Shown here in pieces: positions 2,876 through 62,056 of a DNA stretch of 64,000 bases. The DNA comes from Methanosarcina acetivorans C2A (GTDB taxonomy: Archaea; Halobacteriota; Methanosarcinia; Methanosarcinales; Methanosarcinaceae): NCBI RefSeq assembly GCF_000007345.1, contig NC_003552.1, positions 1,612,001-1,676,000 on the forward strand. The letters are read 5' to 3'. Each line of letters begins with the position of its first letter. Positions within the stretch are counted from its first letter, which is position 1. The notes under the pieces were generated by a model. It worked only from the letters and a program-made list of their open reading frames with translations, was not told the origin of the DNA and made no database searches. The position numbers and the translations under genes were made by a program.

Positions 2876-3329
2876 ATACTTGTAAGGAACTTGGGGATCT
2901 TAATTATCAAGAAGCCTCATATTACAGATTTAAATGCGTAGAAAATATCAATAAAGGGTCAATGACTGTTTAATTTTTGATAAATCTCCTGTATGTTTGA
3001 TAAAAGGGCTTATATCTACTCTTTCCGGAATATAAATTTCGCAGATCTTTTATCAAGGAAAATAAAGTATTATCAAGTTTTAAAAGTATCAATCCTTTCC
3101 GGTAACAAAACTATTGCAAAAAGTATACTTATATTCTAATTTTACAATATGAAGTACTATCCCAAAATTGTTTTTAAGGCAAAACGAAAGGCTTTGAAAA
3201 CAATCTCTGGGAATTAAAAGATCTTTAAACAAGAAGGAATAAAGGTCTTTAAAAAATCGAAGGAATAAAGGTCTCAAAAACAGAAGGAACTAATCTCCAA
3301 AAAGTATGTACTCCAAAAACATTGAGAGA

Positions 3330-3610
3330 AACCTGAATGTTAAGGGCACATCGTCCTGAAACGGTGGCATCTGTTGTACCCATATTGATGTCAACGATCC
3401 GATCCTTCCGGAAACCCACAACAGAAGCTGCCGAGTTATCCCATTAAATAGTAGTACCTGGACAGGTTGTCACAGGTACGCTGTGGGATAAAATCCTGGA
3501 TTAACAGTACTGAGGCGGTGTCAAGGTACATGTTAACGGGATTAGCTCTTAACAATAAGCATTTTTCAGGCAACGCCTGTAGGGCGGATTCAGGTGTTGC
3601 CTGAAATATC
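3330..3610 (+). ncRNA. Candidate structured RNA in a GC-richer island
   Basis: Within an AT-rich gene-free region (2876-3913) this block is GC-richer and holds nested perfect inverted repeats. TTATCCCA (3436-3443) pairs with TGGGATAA (3484-3491), and inside it GTACCTG (3454-3460) pairs with CAGGTAC (3473-3479). The block ends in an 11-bp perfect hairpin, TTTCAGGCAAC (3564-3574) with GTTGCCTGAAA (3596-3606), followed by a T-rich tract like a terminator. A 37-codon frame at about 3339 seems incidental. It may be a free small RNA or the leader of the methyltransferase downstream. No known RNA family was recognised; SRP RNA and RNase P motifs are absent. The rest of 2876-3913 is AT-rich with short 'aaggaataaaggtct' repeats near 3235-3275 and T-tracts. 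Confidence 0.4.
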
Positions 3611-3913
3611 TTTATTCTTTATCGATTCCAAATGAACAATCTACTCCCAAACCCCTTTTTTATTTTTTTCACCCCTTTTTCTTCATATTGTCTTCCTCAT
3701 TTTGTTTTCTGTCTCGCCTTTCATGATCTCATCTTTTTCTATTCCTGTCTTTCAGAATCCTCAAGGTTGAATTCCATCTTTCTCCTTTTCATGCACAGTT
3801 GACATTGGCCTTCTGACCGCAGGAATAACAGGTCAAATTATTTGGAGGGAGTATCTCAAAATATTTTATTGATTTCGAAATCTTCTTTATCCTGTACCTG
3901 TATTTGCTTCTCT

Positions 3914-11758: not shown

Positions 11759-13123
11759 TTATTTGTTAACAACGACGGTTTTTATGTTCACAAATTGCTT
11801 AAGGCCGTAATATGAAAGTTCCCTTCCTATTCCGGATTTTTTGACTCCTCCAAAAGGCAGTCTTGGGTCGGATTTGACCATTCCGTTTATGGTCACAAAA
11901 CCTGCCCTGATTCTTTTTGCCAGCCGTTCGGCTCTTTCCAGGTCTGCAGACCAGATCTCAGCTCCAAACCCGAACTCCGTAGAGTTTGCAATCTCCACTG
12001 CCTCATCCTCGTCCTTTGCTATGATTACGGGTGCGATAGGTCCGAAGACCTCAAAATTGCAGGCTTTCATGTCTTCACTGGCAGCGGGGATAAGCGCCGG
12101 TCTGAAGAAAAAGCCTTTCGCATGTTCTTCCCCGTACACATGAGGCTCTGCCCCTTTTCTTTTTGCATCCTTCAGGATCTTTTCAAGGATGTTGACACAC
12201 TCTTTTTTTGCCACAGGCCCGATGTCAGTTTCCTCATCCATGGGGTCTCCGATTTTCAGCTCCTGAATATGCAGTTCGAAGGCCTCGATGAAATCCACGA
12301 CGACATCTTCAACGACAATGAACCTCTTGGCGGCAATACAGCTCTGCCCGGCATTAAGGAAACGGGATTCTATCGCAAACTGTGAAGCCCGGTCTATATC
12401 CGCATCTTCAAGCACAATGAAGGGGTCGGACCCTCCAAGTTCCAGAACAAAAGGCTTGACCAACCTTCCGGCAAGCTCCCCTATTTCAGATCCGGCTACC
12501 TGGCTCCCGGTGATCGAAACCCCGTCAACAAGGTCCTCATCTACGATTTCCATGGCAGTTTTAGAGTCGATCAGCAGGGTCTTAAACACATTTTCAGGTA
12601 GTCCGGCTTCGGTAAATACTTTTTCAACCTCAAGAGCCGACATAGGCACATTGGACGCATGCTTCAGCAGGCACACATTTCCAGCAGTCAGTGCTGGCAC
12701 TGCAAACCTGAAAGCCTGCCAGAAAGGAAAATCCCAGGGTGCGATCCCGAGAATAATTCCCAGGGGCTCAAAGGTGACATAGCTCTTTTCGGCTTCTGTT
12801 TCCACAACTTCATCCTTCAGAAACTCTGCCGAATTTTCCGCATAATAGTCACAGAGACATGCGCAATTATCAATCTCTCCAAGTGCCTGCCTGATTGGCT
12901 TTCCCATTTCTTTTGTGATAATTTCGGCGTACACCCTTTTGCTTTGCCTGAGTACCTCAGCTGCACGTGCAATATACCTGGTTCTTTCCTCAACAGAAAG
13001 CGAGCTCCAACCCGAAAAAGTAGCCCTGGACTTTTTGATCTGGTCTTCGCAGTCTCCAAAAGATAATACATCGTAAACCCAGTTTACTTCTTCAGTATAA
13101 GGATTAATAGATTTGATTTTCAT
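11759..13123 (-). CDS. NAD(P)-dependent aldehyde dehydrogenase (succinate-semialdehyde type)
   Basis: A 454-residue member of the ALDH superfamily. Catalytic Cys262 lies in NAGQSCIAAKRF, the general base Glu228 in LELGGSDPF, and Lys154 in the APWDFPF...LLKHAS cofactor region. The pattern fits the short succinate-semialdehyde dehydrogenase subgroup, which oxidises aldehydes to acids with NAD(P)+. A strong Shine-Dalgarno (GGGGGGAGG) precedes the ATG at 13123. It lies 215 bp upstream of the TPP-enzyme gene on the same strand. The true substrate is unknown, and lactaldehyde or glyceraldehyde are alternatives. Confidence 0.9.
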   Translation of the reverse strand: MKIKSINPYTEEVNWVYDVLSFGDCEDQIKKSRATFSGWSSLSVEERTRYIARAAEVLRQSKRVYAEIITKEMGKPIRQALGEIDNCACLCDYYAENSAEFLKDEVVETEAEKSYVTFEPLGIILGIAPWDFPFWQAFRFAVPALTAGNVCLLKHASNVPMSALEVEKVFTEAGLPENVFKTLLIDSKTAMEIVDEDLVDGVSITGSQVAGSEIGELAGRLVKPFVLELGGSDPFIVLEDADIDRASQFAIESRFLNAGQSCIAAKRFIVVEDVVVDFIEAFELHIQELKIGDPMDEETDIGPVAKKECVNILEKILKDAKRKGAEPHVYGEEHAKGFFFRPALIPAASEDMKACNFEVFGPIAPVIIAKDEDEAVEIANSTEFGFGAEIWSADLERAERLAKRIRAGFVTINGMVKSDPRLPFGGVKKSGIGRELSYYGLKQFVNIKTVVVNK

Positions 13124-13371
13124 GACCTCCCCCCGAAAAAGAGTCCTTTAGTAATATTGAGATTCCCGCTATTATAATTTAAGGACAGGTAAACCTCTTA
13201 AAAGGAAGAGATGATCAGAATCCTTTAAAGTTCCTGTTTTCGGAATGAACTTTCATGTCATCTTGCCGAGTAAAAAATGAACTAAATAACGAAACTATGT
13301 TCAGAAGCTGGCAGTAATAGTTATAAAACCAGAATATTAATTATAGAGCACTCAATAAATGGGGGGAAAAT

Positions 13372-13797
13372 ATGAGAAAAGCATTGCTTGTTTTAATGGT
13401 TATTTTTGGCGTATTCTTGGCAATAGGATGTACAGGTACCGAACAACCGAATGAAACAGGAACTCCAACTGAAACGATAACTGAAGGTGAAGAGATGGCT
13501 GCAACCGAGGAGATGACTGCAACCGAAGAGATGGCTGCAACCGAGGAGATGACTGCAACCGAGGAGATGACTGCAACCGAAGAGATGACTGAAACCGAAG
13601 GAATGACTGAAACCGAAGGAATGACTGCAACCGAAGAGATGACTGCAACCGAAGAAATGAATGTAAGTGATGTAGCAGGCGGAGAAGAAGTAGAAATTCT
13701 AGCTGGAGAGGAAATGACAGCTGCAGAGGAAGCAGATAACGAAACTGAAAATGTTACAGGAGGAACCGGAGTAATCCAGGTAACCCCTAACAAATAA
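13372..13797 (+). CDS. Repeat-rich acidic surface lipoprotein
   Basis: The protein begins with a lipoprotein signal peptide (MRKALLVLMVIFGVFLAIGC) whose lipobox Cys20 would be lipid-modified. The body is dominated by about nine tandem six-residue units of the form ATEEMT, encoded by 18-bp DNA repeats at about 13490-13655. A short tail containing two N-glycosylation sequons follows. There is no catalytic domain. It starts at ATG 13372 after GGGGGG. It is the first of three lipoproteins with similar leader peptides and similar upstream DNA. It may be a spacer or adhesin-like surface protein, and repeat number is likely to vary between strains. Confidence 0.75.
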   Translation: MRKALLVLMVIFGVFLAIGCTGTEQPNETGTPTETITEGEEMAATEEMTATEEMAATEEMTATEEMTATEEMTETEGMTETEGMTATEEMTATEEMNVSDVAGGEEVEILAGEEMTAAEEADNETENVTGGTGVIQVTPNK

Positions 13798-14326
13798 ATG
13801 GTGGACGCGGCAGTTCAAAATTCTGCTTTTAATCCTAACAGTTTGCAGTATAAAATAAGGTAATATTTCGATATGGATGAATAAGGGTTTTCGAAAACAA
13901 ATGAAGTGTAATTACAGCATTTTAGTCTGATAAGCAGAATAAGAAACATCTAAAATCTGTTTCTTGAAAAAGTTTCTATGAATTCCTTTATTCAGTCCAT
14001 CCAATATTGAATGGTTATGTAGAACGGTTATTTGTAAATATGCCGTTTTAACTATATCACTTTTTATCAATTGAGCTAAGTTTATGCTTTTTCGTTTTGT
14101 CAAGTTACCGAACCCACTTCAAACAGCCTTATTTTTAGAGTCTTCTGTTATCAAGATAAGGTCAAATCCGTGTGGAAAAGAGCGCTTTGAACTTACAAAA
14201 TATCTGTCTTTCAAATTTCTAATTCATACGTGAAATCATAAGAGGAACTATATTCAGAATCTGGTAGGAACCATTATAAAATCAAACTATTATTTACAAA
14301 CATCTGATCTTTACGTGGGGGAGACG
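13798..14326 (+). other. Gene-free region with lipoprotein-type promoter
   Basis: No convincing gene. The last 80 bp resemble the DNA upstream of 13372: 'aactatattcagaatctgg' here against 'aactatgttcagaagctgg' at about 13292, each followed by a TATA-like TTATAAAA. The remaining bases are AT-rich without structure that I can support. Confidence 0.5.
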
Positions 14327-14758
14327 ATGAGAAAAGAGCTTATTATTTTGCCAGTCTTATTTAGCGTCTTTATGGCGATAGGGTGCACAAGCAACACGGG
14401 CAATGATACTCAAATACCTGCAACTCCAACCGAAACGCCTTCAATTCCAGTTGAAGAACCTGCAATGGTACCGGATTCAAATGCAACGTCTGAAACCGGG
14501 GGTGACGGAAAGATTGTTGAAGTGTCGATTAAGGATTTTTCCTTTAACCCGGAATCGGTCACGGTGTCAGCCGGGGATACCGTAAGATGGACGAACATGG
14601 ACTCAGTTGGCCATACTGTGAGCGGACCTACTTTTGAGTCCGGTATACTGGAAAATGGAGACTCTTTCGAGTTCCTTTTTACAGATCCGGGGGTTTATGA
14701 TTACAGTTGTTCAATCCATCCTTCTATGAAAGGAACGGTGATAGTAGAAAATAATTGA
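14327..14758 (+). CDS. Plastocyanin/halocyanin-like blue-copper lipoprotein
   Basis: A lipoprotein signal peptide ends at the lipobox AIGC (Cys20). A Pro/Thr/Glu linker follows, and then a cupredoxin domain from about residue 58. The four type-1 copper ligands are visible: His in VGHTVSG, then Cys, His and Met in YSCSIHPSMKG. It is expected to sit outside the membrane and carry single electrons. The ATG at 14327 is preferred over an in-frame GTG at 14315 because GGGGGAG precedes it. The gene at 15226 is a paralogue with a longer stalk. The electron partners are not evident in the window. Confidence 0.87.
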   Translation: MRKELIILPVLFSVFMAIGCTSNTGNDTQIPATPTETPSIPVEEPAMVPDSNATSETGGDGKIVEVSIKDFSFNPESVTVSAGDTVRWTNMDSVGHTVSGPTFESGILENGDSFEFLFTDPGVYDYSCSIHPSMKGTVIVENN

Positions 14759-15225
14759 GGAATTTACAAAGGTAGAAGGTGTATTTAAATTCAAGATCTA
14801 AGCAGCTAAAATAAGAAGCTAAAATCTTCATATAAGAAAAGAGTCTTTAAAAAAAAAACGGTTTTTTACTTGTTGGAAAAAATATATCTTTTTTCTCTTT
14901 TGATTAACTTTTTTTCTTTATTTATCGAAAAGATTATAGTGCATTTTCAAGCACATTTTCCGATAATTCCGGACTATCAGATCTCCAATCCGATATTTCT
15001 AACCTGGAAATCTGCTCTGAAAGAAATTCCTGCCAGAAATTGGCTTTAAAGAATCTGTTAGATCAAAAGTCGAATCAATTTTTTTCCACCTTCTACCCAT
15101 AGTTCGCGCCAAGGGCTATTTCTCAGGTGTTCTGCCGCATTTTACAATTAATTAATCGGATAGCAACTATTATGGAATAAAGACTATATTATAAAACACC
15201 TGTACGCCGTATTTATGGGGGGACA
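14759..15225 (+). other. Gene-free region
   Basis: AT-rich, with a poly-A/poly-T stretch near 14850-14900 that could form a weak terminator for the preceding gene. A TATA-like 'ATTATAAAAC' near 15190 probably serves the next lipoprotein gene. Confidence 0.4.
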
Positions 15226-15993
15226 ATGAGAAGAGAATATATTATTTTCATAATCCTGCTCGGGATACTCCTGTCTGCAGGCTGTGCAGAAAATGGCGTT
15301 GAAGAACCCGAGACTGCTGTAACTCCTGCCGAAAATCCCATAGTTCCGGCTGAAGTGCCTCAGGCTCCGGCTGAAATTGTTGAAAATCCGGAAAATAACA
15401 CTTCCAATCAAACAGCTGTTGAAAACCTGACAGTTCCGGAAACTGAAATTGTTGAAAATCCGGAAAATAACACTTCCAATCAAACAGCTGCTGAAAACCT
15501 GACAGTTCCGGAAGCTGAAATTGTTGAAAATCCGGAAAATAACATTTCCAATCAAACAGTTGCTGAAAACCTGACAGTTCCGGAAACTGAAATTGTTGAA
15601 AATCCGGAAAATAACACTTCCAATCAAACAGCTGCTGAAAACCTGACAGTTCCGGAAATTGAAATTGTTGAAAATCCGAAAAATAACACTTCCAATCAAA
15701 CAGCTGCTGAAAACCTGACAGTTCCGGAAGCTGAACACAAAACAGTTGAAGTGAAAATCGAAGACTTTGCCTTTAACCCCGACTCGGTTACGATTTCTCC
15801 CGGGGATACGGTCCGGTGGACAAACCTGGATCTGTTCACTCACACAGTAACAGGCCCTGATTTCTCTTCCGGCACACTAAGGGACGGAGACTCTTACGAG
15901 TTCACTTTTACGCGAGAGGGTACCTACAGGTACTACTGTTCAATTCACGCCTCGATGGAAGGGGTTGTGACAGTTGAGGGGGTAAAGCCGTAA
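15226..15993 (+). CDS. Cupredoxin lipoprotein on a sequon-rich repeat stalk
   Basis: A lipobox signal (LLSAGC) is followed by five tandem 24-residue repeats, each containing EIVENPENNTSNQTAAENLT or close variants, encoded by 72-bp DNA repeats (about 15373-15735). Each repeat holds three or more N-X-S/T sequons (NNT, NQT, NLT), giving about fifteen potential N-glycosylation sites. A C-terminal cupredoxin domain follows, with copper ligands His (FTHTVTG) and Cys, His, Met (YYCSIHASMEG). The protein is probably lipid-anchored and raised above the membrane on a glycosylated stalk, where it would carry electrons. A good ribosome-binding site GGGGGG precedes the ATG. Confidence 0.87.
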   Translation: MRREYIIFIILLGILLSAGCAENGVEEPETAVTPAENPIVPAEVPQAPAEIVENPENNTSNQTAVENLTVPETEIVENPENNTSNQTAAENLTVPEAEIVENPENNISNQTVAENLTVPETEIVENPENNTSNQTAAENLTVPEIEIVENPKNNTSNQTAAENLTVPEAEHKTVEVKIEDFAFNPDSVTISPGDTVRWTNLDLFTHTVTGPDFSSGTLRDGDSYEFTFTREGTYRYYCSIHASMEGVVTVEGVKP

Positions 15994-16118
15994 AAATTGA
16001 TCCACTTCTAAAGGTACAGGAATCGTTAAATTCCTTCATGTTATTGGGATAATTTTTGAATATTGTATCCCACTTTTTTTTAGAACATCTACAGAATGTC
16101 GGATCAAAGAATCAACAT

Positions 16119-16250
16119 TTATTTTCCTCCCACTTTTTCCCTTATAAAATCATAAATCATCTCTGCAACATTAATCCCGCAGCATTCTCCTACGCCTTCG
16201 AAGCCGGGGGAAGAATTAGCTTCGCAGACTTTGAAGTGGGCTTCATCGAA
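16119..16250 (-). pseudogene. 3'-end fragment of the ATP-grasp ligase gene
   Basis: The reverse strand encodes about 44 residues ending in a stop (16119-16121) that match the C-terminus of the ligase at 17300: FKVCEANSSPGF, then ECCGINV and MIYDF. No start or N-terminal part exists, so it is a duplicated tail. The intact gene lies 1.05 kb downstream in the same orientation, with a methyltransferase gene between them. Confidence 0.85.
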
Positions 16251-16367
16251 GAAGAAGTAAATTGCTTCTTTCCTGTTGTGATTTAACAACAAAGTAGATA
16301 TGTTAATACTTGTTTTTATTTTAGTAACACTATATCTTCGAAAATAGAAGCTAACCGAGGTTGTAAT

Positions 16368-17213
16368 ATGGACTCAGATGTAATTGACTGGAACGAAGTC
16401 TGGAAAGAGACGCTGGAAAAACAGCTGAAATCAAACAGAAATGTAGATTGTGCGACCATATGGTACAGCAAGGAAAACGCCAGACGCTTCTGGAGGATGT
16501 TTCAGGATGGGAAGTCAAGGGAAATAACCGAGAAGAGAATAGAAGGCATGAAGCTTTCCCCCGACTCCAGAGTTCTCGATATAGGAGCCGGGCCCGGGAC
16601 CCTTGCAATTCCGATTTCACAGCGTGTCGCCCACGTAACCGCTGTAGAGCCTTCGGAGGGCATGATAAGTGTTATGCAGGACAACATTAAAGAGTACGGA
16701 ATCGAAAATATCGACCCTGTACACAAAGACTGGGAGTCCGTTGATGTCGAGTCCGACCTTTCCGCTCCTTATGATGTGGTTTTTGCTTCTTATTCCCTGG
16801 GCATGAAAGATATACGGACTTCGGTTCAGAAGATGGTAGACGCTTCTTCGAAATACGTTTACCTGTACTGGTTTGCAGGGGAAACTTCCTGGGATATGCA
16901 TTCCCGGAAACTCTGGCCTTTTCTTCACGGGAGTGAGTACCAACCAGCTCCTAAATGCGATGTTCTCTATAACGTGCTCTATGACATGGGAATCTACCCG
17001 AATGTAAGCGTTTTTCCCTTTGAGCACGTCCACAGGTTTGCAACCCTTGATGAAGCTGTCGAGGATTTTAAGTCATACTACAACGCAAGCTCCGATACCC
17101 AGGAAGCCATCCTCAGGGACTATTTTGAAGGTGTGCTTGAAAAAGACAACGGAGCCCTTGTTCAGAGAGGATGGTCTACAAGGGTAAAGATGTGGTGGGA
17201 AAAAACAAACTGA
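16368..17213 (+). CDS. SAM-dependent methyltransferase
   Basis: A 281-residue protein with a class I SAM-binding motif RVLDIGAGPGTLAIP at about residues 65-79 and an acidic VEPSEGM at the end of beta-2. Residues 1-60 form an N-terminal extension rich in Trp and charged residues, which may bind substrate. GAGGTTG precedes the ATG. The substrate is not recognisable. It is bracketed by an ATP-grasp gene and a fragment of the same gene, showing that this locus has undergone a duplication or rearrangement. Confidence 0.82.
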   Translation: MDSDVIDWNEVWKETLEKQLKSNRNVDCATIWYSKENARRFWRMFQDGKSREITEKRIEGMKLSPDSRVLDIGAGPGTLAIPISQRVAHVTAVEPSEGMISVMQDNIKEYGIENIDPVHKDWESVDVESDLSAPYDVVFASYSLGMKDIRTSVQKMVDASSKYVYLYWFAGETSWDMHSRKLWPFLHGSEYQPAPKCDVLYNVLYDMGIYPNVSVFPFEHVHRFATLDEAVEDFKSYYNASSDTQEAILRDYFEGVLEKDNGALVQRGWSTRVKMWWEKTN

Positions 17214-17299
17214 ATGGTCAGAGCATGCAGCGGACAAAACCGAACAGGTCAAGCCGGGCAGGTTAGGTAGATTAAGCCACTAGTAAAAAACTTCATATC

Positions 17300-18205
17300 T
17301 CATTTTCCTTCCACTTTTTCCCTCACAAAATCATAAATCATCCCCGCAACATTAATCCCGCAGCATTCTTCTATGCCCTTGAAGCCGGGGGAAGAATTAG
17401 CTTCGCAGACTTTGAAGTAGTCGCCATCGAAGAGGAGGTCAACTCCTGCTATTTCGAGGCCGAAGATGTGGGCGGTTTCGGTTGCAAGCTGTTCGATCTC
17501 GGGAGTCATCTCGAATTTGCGGACTGCTCCGCCTCTGGAATAGTTGGACTTGAAGCTGCCTGCGGGAGCGATTCTTTCCATGCAGGCAACCGCCCGGCCT
17601 CCTATAACAAGGACTCTGAGGTCTCTTCCAAGGCTGGATTTGATGAACTCCTGAAGGATTATGTTTGCGTTGGGGTTGGTGACATGGATCAGTTCCATGA
17701 GGTCCTGGAAGTTACCGTGGTTTTCCGAGAGGAAGATGCCTTTGCCCATGGAGCCGGAGAGGGCTTTTACTATGAGGGGAAAACCCAGGTATTTCTCAAC
17801 CAGGTTTATGTTGACAGGGTTTTTGGCAAACATCGTATTGGGAGAGGAAATTCCTCTTTCGGCCAGGATCTGCTGGGAGTAGAGCTTGTCCTTGACGGTG
17901 TCAATGCTCTGAGAAGAGTTAAATACACGGACTCCGCGGCGTTCTAGGTGGCGGATTACTGCAAGAGCGAAGTAGGTCGTGCCTGCGCCCATTCTCGGCA
18001 GGAGAAAGTTCGGAAGCGGGACAACTTCCCCGTCAAGAAGAATGCTTTTCCTGTCTTCCTTTGTTACGATCAGGTCGAACTGGTCGGGTTTTACAACCCT
18101 TAGTTCTATTCCCTTCTCTCCCGCAACCTCGATGAAGCGGTGAATTTCGTACAGGTCGGGCCTTAATTCGGCAGCCGTATTCTTGTAGAGAATCCATCCT
18201 TTCAT
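17300..18205 (-). CDS. RimK-like ATP-grasp amino-acid ligase
   Basis: A 301-residue ATP-grasp enzyme of the RimK family. Landmarks are KDKLYSQQIL (pre-ATP-grasp), the glycine-rich PLIVKALSGSMGKGIFL, DLRVLVIGG, and the magnesium-binding AGVDLLFDGDYFKVCEANSSPGF. In methanogens, close relatives add glutamate to cofactors: CofF to coenzyme F420, MptN to tetrahydrosarcinapterin. Other relatives modify ribosomal protein S6. The sequence alone does not choose between these, but a cofactor ligase is a fair guess. A 3'-end copy lies at 16119. Confidence 0.85.
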   Translation of the reverse strand: MKGWILYKNTAAELRPDLYEIHRFIEVAGEKGIELRVVKPDQFDLIVTKEDRKSILLDGEVVPLPNFLLPRMGAGTTYFALAVIRHLERRGVRVFNSSQSIDTVKDKLYSQQILAERGISSPNTMFAKNPVNINLVEKYLGFPLIVKALSGSMGKGIFLSENHGNFQDLMELIHVTNPNANIILQEFIKSSLGRDLRVLVIGGRAVACMERIAPAGSFKSNYSRGGAVRKFEMTPEIEQLATETAHIFGLEIAGVDLLFDGDYFKVCEANSSPGFKGIEECCGINVAGMIYDFVREKVEGK

Positions 18206-18600
18206 TCTTTCATCCGCTCTACCCTGTGGGGAGTGTTTCTATATTTATAAAAAGATAGTCAGCTATTTGAAAAACGTTTCCGATATATAGAGCTATTCTT
18301 TTCGTTTCAGAGTCCTGCTTTTTTCCGTCTTTCCTCTTTTCCGATTTCCGGTTTTTTCGGTTTTGTCAGGCATTCCAGAAAACCAGCAAATGAATCTTAA
18401 AAAGCCATATTATAAAATATTAAATGCTCTAATCTATCTAATTTTTTACACACCATAATCTTGCTAATTTTTATAACAATAATATAGCTAATTTCCATAT
18501 CGTAAGCACTAATTTAGTCTCGGATTACAGGTTAAAAATGAAGGAAAATGTAAAGTCAGGAGGAAAAATCTTTCCGGATTTGCCGAATGTCCTCTTGGAT
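18206..18600. other. Gene-free region
   Basis: No gene supported. It is AT-rich, with several TATA-like stretches around 18240-18500. It contains the promoter of the ATP-grasp ligase and the 3' flank of the TPR gene. Confidence 0.4.
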
Positions 18601-61867: not shown

Positions 61868-62056
61868 GACACTTATATATTAACATCCAGAAATGACACT
61901 TATATATTAACATCCAGAAATGACACTTATATATTAACATCCAGAAATGACACTTATATATTAACATCCAGAAATGACACTTATATATTAACATCCAGAA
62001 ATGACACTTATATATTAACATCCAGAAATGACACTTATATATTAACATCCAGAAAT
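61868..62056. repeat. 27-bp tandem repeat, seven copies, each with a TATA element
   Basis: Seven head-to-tail, identical copies of a 27-bp unit beginning GACACTTATATATTAACATC. Each unit holds a TTATATATT/AATATATAA element resembling an archaeal TATA box, readable on both strands. The array begins 58 bp upstream of the helical-repeat gene at 61809. Confidence 0.95.

Follow-up and report, generated by a model that had tools for sequence, protein, structure and literature searches.

A putative lipid-tethered cupredoxin on a sequon-rich repeat stalk in Methanosarcina acetivorans

Lipid-tethered cupredoxins are a known kind of protein: halocyanin is a lipid-anchored archaeal blue copper protein with a lipobox-type anchor, and the H.8 segment of the neisserial lipoprotein Laz consists of repeats. 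Auracyanin B and the plant phytocyanins are likewise membrane-tethered cupredoxins and stand on a glycosylated tether. N-glycosylated lipobox proteins exist in Haloferax (PMC8241124), surface proteins of Methanosarcina are glycosylated (PMC4350412), and a study of DIET in M. barkeri proposed cupredoxins as surface carriers, itself noting a mismatch of potentials (PMC6315138). Here we describe a gene in a stretch of 64,000 nucleotides (the window) of the M. acetivorans C2A genome (5,751,492 bases in a single contig), the product of which joins a lipobox, a linker, a repeat stalk and a cupredoxin domain (Table 1). The sequon-rich repeat stalk of this protein is more unusual than its copper domain.

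Table 1. Coordinates, in window positions, of the cupredoxin gene, its parts and the two upstream lipoprotein genes
Feature	Position	Strand	Evidence or remark
CDS, lipobox-linker-repeat stalk-cupredoxin, 255 aa	15226-15993	+	ORF; Pfam PF00127/PF13473; intact ortholog, orthology supported
Signal peptide up to lipobox Cys20 (LLSAGC)	15226-15285	+	PS51257-type pattern match; AF2 helix 3-17
Pro/Glu/Ala-rich linker, residues 21-49	15286-15372	+	Sequence; AF2 pLDDT about 54-62
Stalk unit 1, EIVENPENNTSNQTAVENLTVPET, 4 sequons	15373-15444	+	
Stalk unit 2, EIVENPENNTSNQTAAENLTVPEA, 4 sequons	15445-15516	+	
Stalk unit 3, EIVENPENNISNQTVAENLTVPET, 3 sequons, without NNT	15517-15588	+	
Stalk unit 4, EIVENPENNTSNQTAAENLTVPEI, 4 sequons	15589-15660	+	
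Stalk unit 5, EIVENPKNNTSNQTAAENLTVPEA, 4 sequons	15661-15732	+	
Cupredoxin domain, residues 173-251	15742-15978	+	Pfam, 40-sequence alignment, AF2, Foldseek
Ligand His206	15841-15843	+	
Ligand Cys238	15937-15939	+	
Ligand His241	15946-15948	+	
Ligand Met244	15955-15957	+	
Adjacent paralog, 147-aa cupredoxin lipoprotein, short stalk, 2 sequons	14315-14758	+	Likely ATG start 14327
141-aa lipoprotein, 18-bp repeats (TEEMTA), no Pfam domain	13372-13797	+	Same gene cluster

Our overall reading, to which we give a probability of roughly 0.55, is that the protein is an extracytoplasmic, membrane-tethered type-1 copper protein, plastocyanin/amicyanin-like, with a probably glycosylated spacer and a part in local electron or copper handling. 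The C-terminal cupredoxin and the lipid-anchor signal named in the original prediction were both recovered. The domain matches the plastocyanin/azurin-type family PF00127 with an E value of 6e-11 (43 bits; gathering cut-off, 21.2) and PF13473 with one of 8.5e-9 (35.8 bits; gathering cut-off, 27), and the type-1 copper ligand set His-Cys-His-Met is complete in both the sequence and the predicted fold. These four residues are kept across an alignment of 40 sequences, except in a truncated ortholog and in a group with CxxE/CxxD in place of the usual motif. The AF2 model of the domain has a pLDDT of ~98, and its Foldseek matches comprised plastocyanins, amicyanins, the cupredoxin domain of NirK and a thaumarchaeal purple cupredoxin, with target-normalised TM scores mostly of 0.66-0.77 for single-domain proteins; among the best 50 matches listed there were plastocyanin, amicyanin, pseudoazurin and NirK, and no azurin. 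The best NCBIfam matches were the amicyanin and plastocyanin models. Since the amicyanin equivalog TIGR02657 (37.1 bits; curated cut-off, 110.2), the plastocyanin equivalog TIGR02656 (36.2 bits; 87.85) and the halocyanin domain TIGR03102 (34.6 bits; 93.8) all scored below their cut-offs, the domain is a plastocyanin/amicyanin-like cupredoxin outside these curated subfamilies. At the other end of the chain, Cys20 fits a PS51257-type lipobox pattern, which requires the Cys at positions 15-35, and from this match we infer that the residue is lipidated; the mature form is strongly acidic, with a pI of 4.05. An antisense ORF of 219 aa (15184-15843) was not taken as a gene: a repeat period divisible by 3 keeps its frame free of stops.

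The tandem array detected by TRF (15371-15735; period of 72, 5.1 copies, 96% matches) reads in frame as exactly five units of 24 aa, as had been predicted. Counted with overlaps, the stalk contains 19 N-X-S/T sequons, and counting each overlapping NNT/NTS pair once turns these into 15 clusters, the figure of about fifteen given originally. The further expectation that NNT, NQT and NLT recur in each repeat holds for units 1, 2, 4 and 5 and fails for unit 3, which reads NNIS, having lost NNT and kept NIS. Every one of the 19 sequons is in the stalk; the remaining 135 residues, those of the cupredoxin domain included, have none. The resulting density of 7.45 sequons per 100 aa compares with a mean of 0.56 over the 61 non-overlapping ORFs of the window, among which the runner-up reaches 3.33. 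With an AF2 pLDDT of about 45-58 across its length, the stalk is predicted to be disordered; it contains only one Lys. At 61868-62056, the window also holds a 27-bp sequence repeated seven times in tandem without mismatch (100% matches).

A search of genome contigs with the whole protein returned no confirmed relative; relatives, the named ones with the same genes being Methanosarcina, were recovered with the alignment of the cupredoxin domain as query. Plasmid records yielded generic cupredoxins only, all at <60% identity. With one genome per species in the genome collections, repeat number is compared between species. Gene order around the locus can be traced in G008, G009 and G003 and, in part, elsewhere. 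In G008, the syntenic ortholog (L114:6404-6961) carries a single unit, NVETPENTSDQIPSENLTRTE, with two sequons; its G009 counterpart (L116:6494-6886) carries a single unit, EIVETPENTPDPTPIENLTLAE, with one sequon, and has a truncated cupredoxin domain; what is left in G003 is degenerate, with in-frame stops and one unit, PDPTPIENLTLPEQE. In the tree, the window domain groups with the G008 ortholog (support, 96/91). The stalk units differ from one another at 1-4 of 72 bases, compared with a DNA identity to the orthologs of 77-83% in longer aligned segments, so the expansion is recent or the units have been homogenised, which bears out the earlier claim of near-identical repeat DNA and recent growth. 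The ENLT sequon is old, since it is present in the single-unit orthologs, and NTS is common to the window gene and the G008 ortholog; NNT, NQT and the 1-to-5 amplification occur only in the lineage of the window gene. Because the syntenic orthologs have one unit with one or two sequons, the amplification and the extra sequons are lineage-specific. Of the three relatives in which traces of the ortholog persist, two (G009 and G003) have it in decayed form; the gene is thus dispensable in relatives, and its decay argues against a core energy function.

Four STT3/AglB-type genes in the host genome (PF02516 above cut-off) make N-glycosylation of the stalk plausible, and the combination of 19 sequons on an exported chain with STT3 in the genome is what the sequence of an archaeal N-glycoprotein of the AglB pathway should present; the stalk is thus probably N-glycosylated by AglB-type enzymes, the sequons being permissive for the modification and not proof of it. 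Three of the STT3/AglB-type genes are clustered at G000:C1 4627758-4635128 and the fourth lies at 1391658.

Of the 123 ORFs with a cupredoxin in the loci retrieved, this one has the most sequon-dense stalk. Stalks of Methanosarcina cupredoxins mostly consist of Pro/Glu/Thr/Val repeats with 0-2 sequons; glycosylation is therefore not needed for the cupredoxin domain. At a different locus, two mutually related proteins (L119:6263-7270 and L120:4992-6272) carry a cupredoxin behind another sequon-rich region, with 18 sequons each, the L119 stalk being built of NMTGMD-type units. These proteins form their own clade (99/97), and the starred branches of the tree require the sequon-stalk label to have changed at least twice, a hint, from very few cases, that sequon-dense cupredoxin stalks arose convergently. 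A bolder and rather doubtful extension would be that Methanosarcina has more than once (in the window gene and, separately, in L119/L120) built a copper electron carrier on a sequon-saturated glycan-brush tether, whose repeat number would govern how far the lipid-anchored redox domain extends through the S-layer space, and that copper is a redox metal in actual use.

Sequon-rich repeats and modified cupredoxins were also seen elsewhere. A Methanosarcina ORF of 696 aa (L118:4800-6890), with 62 sequons in DNMTGMDNRTGMD repeats, runs into a cupredoxin domain past in-frame stops, which suggests a fusion that has been broken or split. A family of secreted proteins (L119:7832-9085, L120:3237-4382 and L151:1501-2544) has 23-32 sequons each in NMTGNMTDNMT repeats, with no convincing Pfam domain, and the genome to which the window belongs also has two copies, near 856.8 kb and 2074.2 kb. 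In one Methanosarcina cupredoxin clade (L134:7516-7929, L039:2935-3249 and L038:2917-3273), the stalk is almost absent and the second His ligand is replaced by Glu or Asp (CSIEPSM or CSIDPSM), a substitution by which the copper site may be altered. L127:2029-2574 and 2955-3650, from the window's own genome, have cupredoxin-like domains without the Cys ligand, on ETPEE-repeat stalks with 1-4 sequons.

The stalk, considered apart from the copper domain and with either role of that domain, might instead be a neutral low-complexity spacer grown by slippage, in which the sequons are by-products of an Asn/Thr-rich amplification and mostly unoccupied or irrelevant; we regard this as possible, although not as the likelier account. 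Six positions vary among the units, all through nonsynonymous transitions and none through synonymous ones, and one of these changes abolishes a sequon (an NNT), so purifying selection on the sequons is not visible; as ~65% of possible transitions are nonsynonymous, six of six would occur by chance with a probability of ~0.07, and six sites are too few to show selection on the sequons in either direction. Neutral growth is also in line with the paralog stalks, which are fast-evolving repeats of other sequence without sequons (e.g., VTPVET), and with the unrelated 18-bp array in the neighbour at 13372-13797. It is less easily reconciled with the sequon content of a single unit, since shuffling one unit gives a mean of 0.73 sequons, and four or more with p = 3e-4, or with the excess of sequons per unit over the single-unit orthologs and the second sequon-dense cupredoxin stalk in the separate clade of L119 and L120. 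Were the sequons unoccupied, the stalk would be an ordinary repeat-grown linker.

The paralog and the 141-aa lipoprotein both lie upstream on the same strand, and the paralog domain is 62% identical to that of the 255-aa protein. The 141-aa lipoprotein has about nine of its Met/Glu-rich repeats; a repeat-rich lipoprotein occupies the matching position in L116, L117, L141 and L142, and relatives of it have Pro/Glu/Val repeats instead and a C terminus of the same kind (GVIRVTP). The cupredoxin gene is followed by a methyltransferase gene, beyond which a RimK-type ATP-grasp gene lies on the opposite strand; it is preceded, on the opposite strand, by an aldehyde dehydrogenase gene and by a second gene for what is, by its sequence, a putative TPP-dependent enzyme. 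No partner oxidoreductase for the copper protein is evident among these neighbourhood genes, and an Rfam search over 13000-18500 found no family. A copper-type P-ATPase (TIGR01511, 610.9 bits) is encoded at G000:C1 1607706-1609532, ~18 kb upstream of the cupredoxin pair and just outside the window.

In our reading of the protein as a membrane-tethered type-1 copper protein, the signal peptide would export it and a lipid on Cys20 would anchor it, and ~150 residues of acidic, disordered chain would keep the compact copper domain away from the membrane, probably within the gap that separates the membrane from the S-layer. The stalk would have originated in the lineage-specific amplification of an ancestral segment of ~24 residues that already had the ENLT sequon; N-glycans would make it stiffer, protease-resistant and brush-like, and the number of repeats would tune the reach of the copper domain. 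The copper site would most likely pass single electrons between envelope neighbours, or hold copper for them, over nanometres. Electron transfer, copper buffering and oxidant protection are each compatible with the sequence.

It is possible, if again not what we favor, that the domain on its tether takes up Cu or quenches oxidants close to the membrane, as has been suggested of Neisseria Laz in the case of hydrogen peroxide, and takes part in no respiratory electron path. Such a role would suit the lack of a dedicated redox partner beside the gene, the several cupredoxin lipoproteins and Cu-type P-ATPases in the genome, the protection of cells from H2O2 by Laz (PMC6277709) and the fact that high-potential type-1 sites are ill-suited to the methanophenazine pool at -165 mV (PMC6315138); it fits poorly with the His2CysMet type-1 site, a classic electron-transfer site, with copper-resistance genes that do not directly adjoin the locus and with the rise of a Methanosarcina cupredoxin transcript under syntrophic growth conditions (PMC6315138). 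The original placement of the domain within or above the S-layer, where it would trade electrons with minerals or partner cells, we consider highly improbable, because nothing computed here puts the domain outside the S-layer, a layer characterised as a barrier by size and charge (PMC5744192), external electron exchange in M. acetivorans has been tied to the cytochrome MmcA (PMC8546582), cupredoxin potentials of 150-680 mV are far above that of methanophenazine (PMC6315138) and the orthologs of close relatives are one-unit or decayed to pseudogenes, whereas the support, namely, M. barkeri cupredoxin genes up 7.3- and 2.9-fold in DIET (PMC6315138) and surface copper-domain proteins listed as Methanothrix candidates (PMC10470525), consists of transcript data on other proteins.

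The preferred reading, a tethered copper protein acting locally, bears on copper use in methanogens. In a survey from 2008, all Methanosarcinales were classed as organisms that do not use copper (PMC2147054), yet the present genome encodes three PF00127 proteins with intact copper sites. If copper-loaded, the protein described here would strengthen the case for copper redox proteins in the envelopes of anaerobic methanogens. The five-unit array beside single-unit orthologs also provides, in a genus with genetic tools, a natural series on stalk length and glycan density for a tethered redox domain.

Among described proteins, the M. barkeri DIET cupredoxin Ga0072459_111371 (PMC6315138), compared by description, is from the same genus and likewise has a lipoprotein attachment site and a cupredoxin domain. 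The M. barkeri-like homolog in our set (L134:7516-7929), which we would guess from map position only to be this protein, a link given no weight as evidence here, differs in having nearly no stalk and CxxE instead of CxxH. With amicyanin and plastocyanin, the window protein shares the cupredoxin fold and the His-Cys-His-Met ligands, and the spacing of its CxxHxxM loop is presumably that of amicyanin; it differs in that its domain is only ~26-38% identical to the solved structures, in its predicted lipid anchor and repeat stalk, and in that their partners (methylamine dehydrogenase and photosystem) are not expected for it. Halocyanin has in common with it the archaeal origin and the cupredoxin domain, and we know of no halocyanin with a five-unit sequon stalk. 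Auracyanin B and the phytocyanins, likened by description, have other anchors and glycans. For Laz, no N-sequon array is known to us. Compared by description, Laz shares with the window protein the lipoprotein anchor, a low-complexity repeat segment and a C-terminal cupredoxin (PMC6277709), and it differs in its azurin-type domain and Gram-negative envelope.
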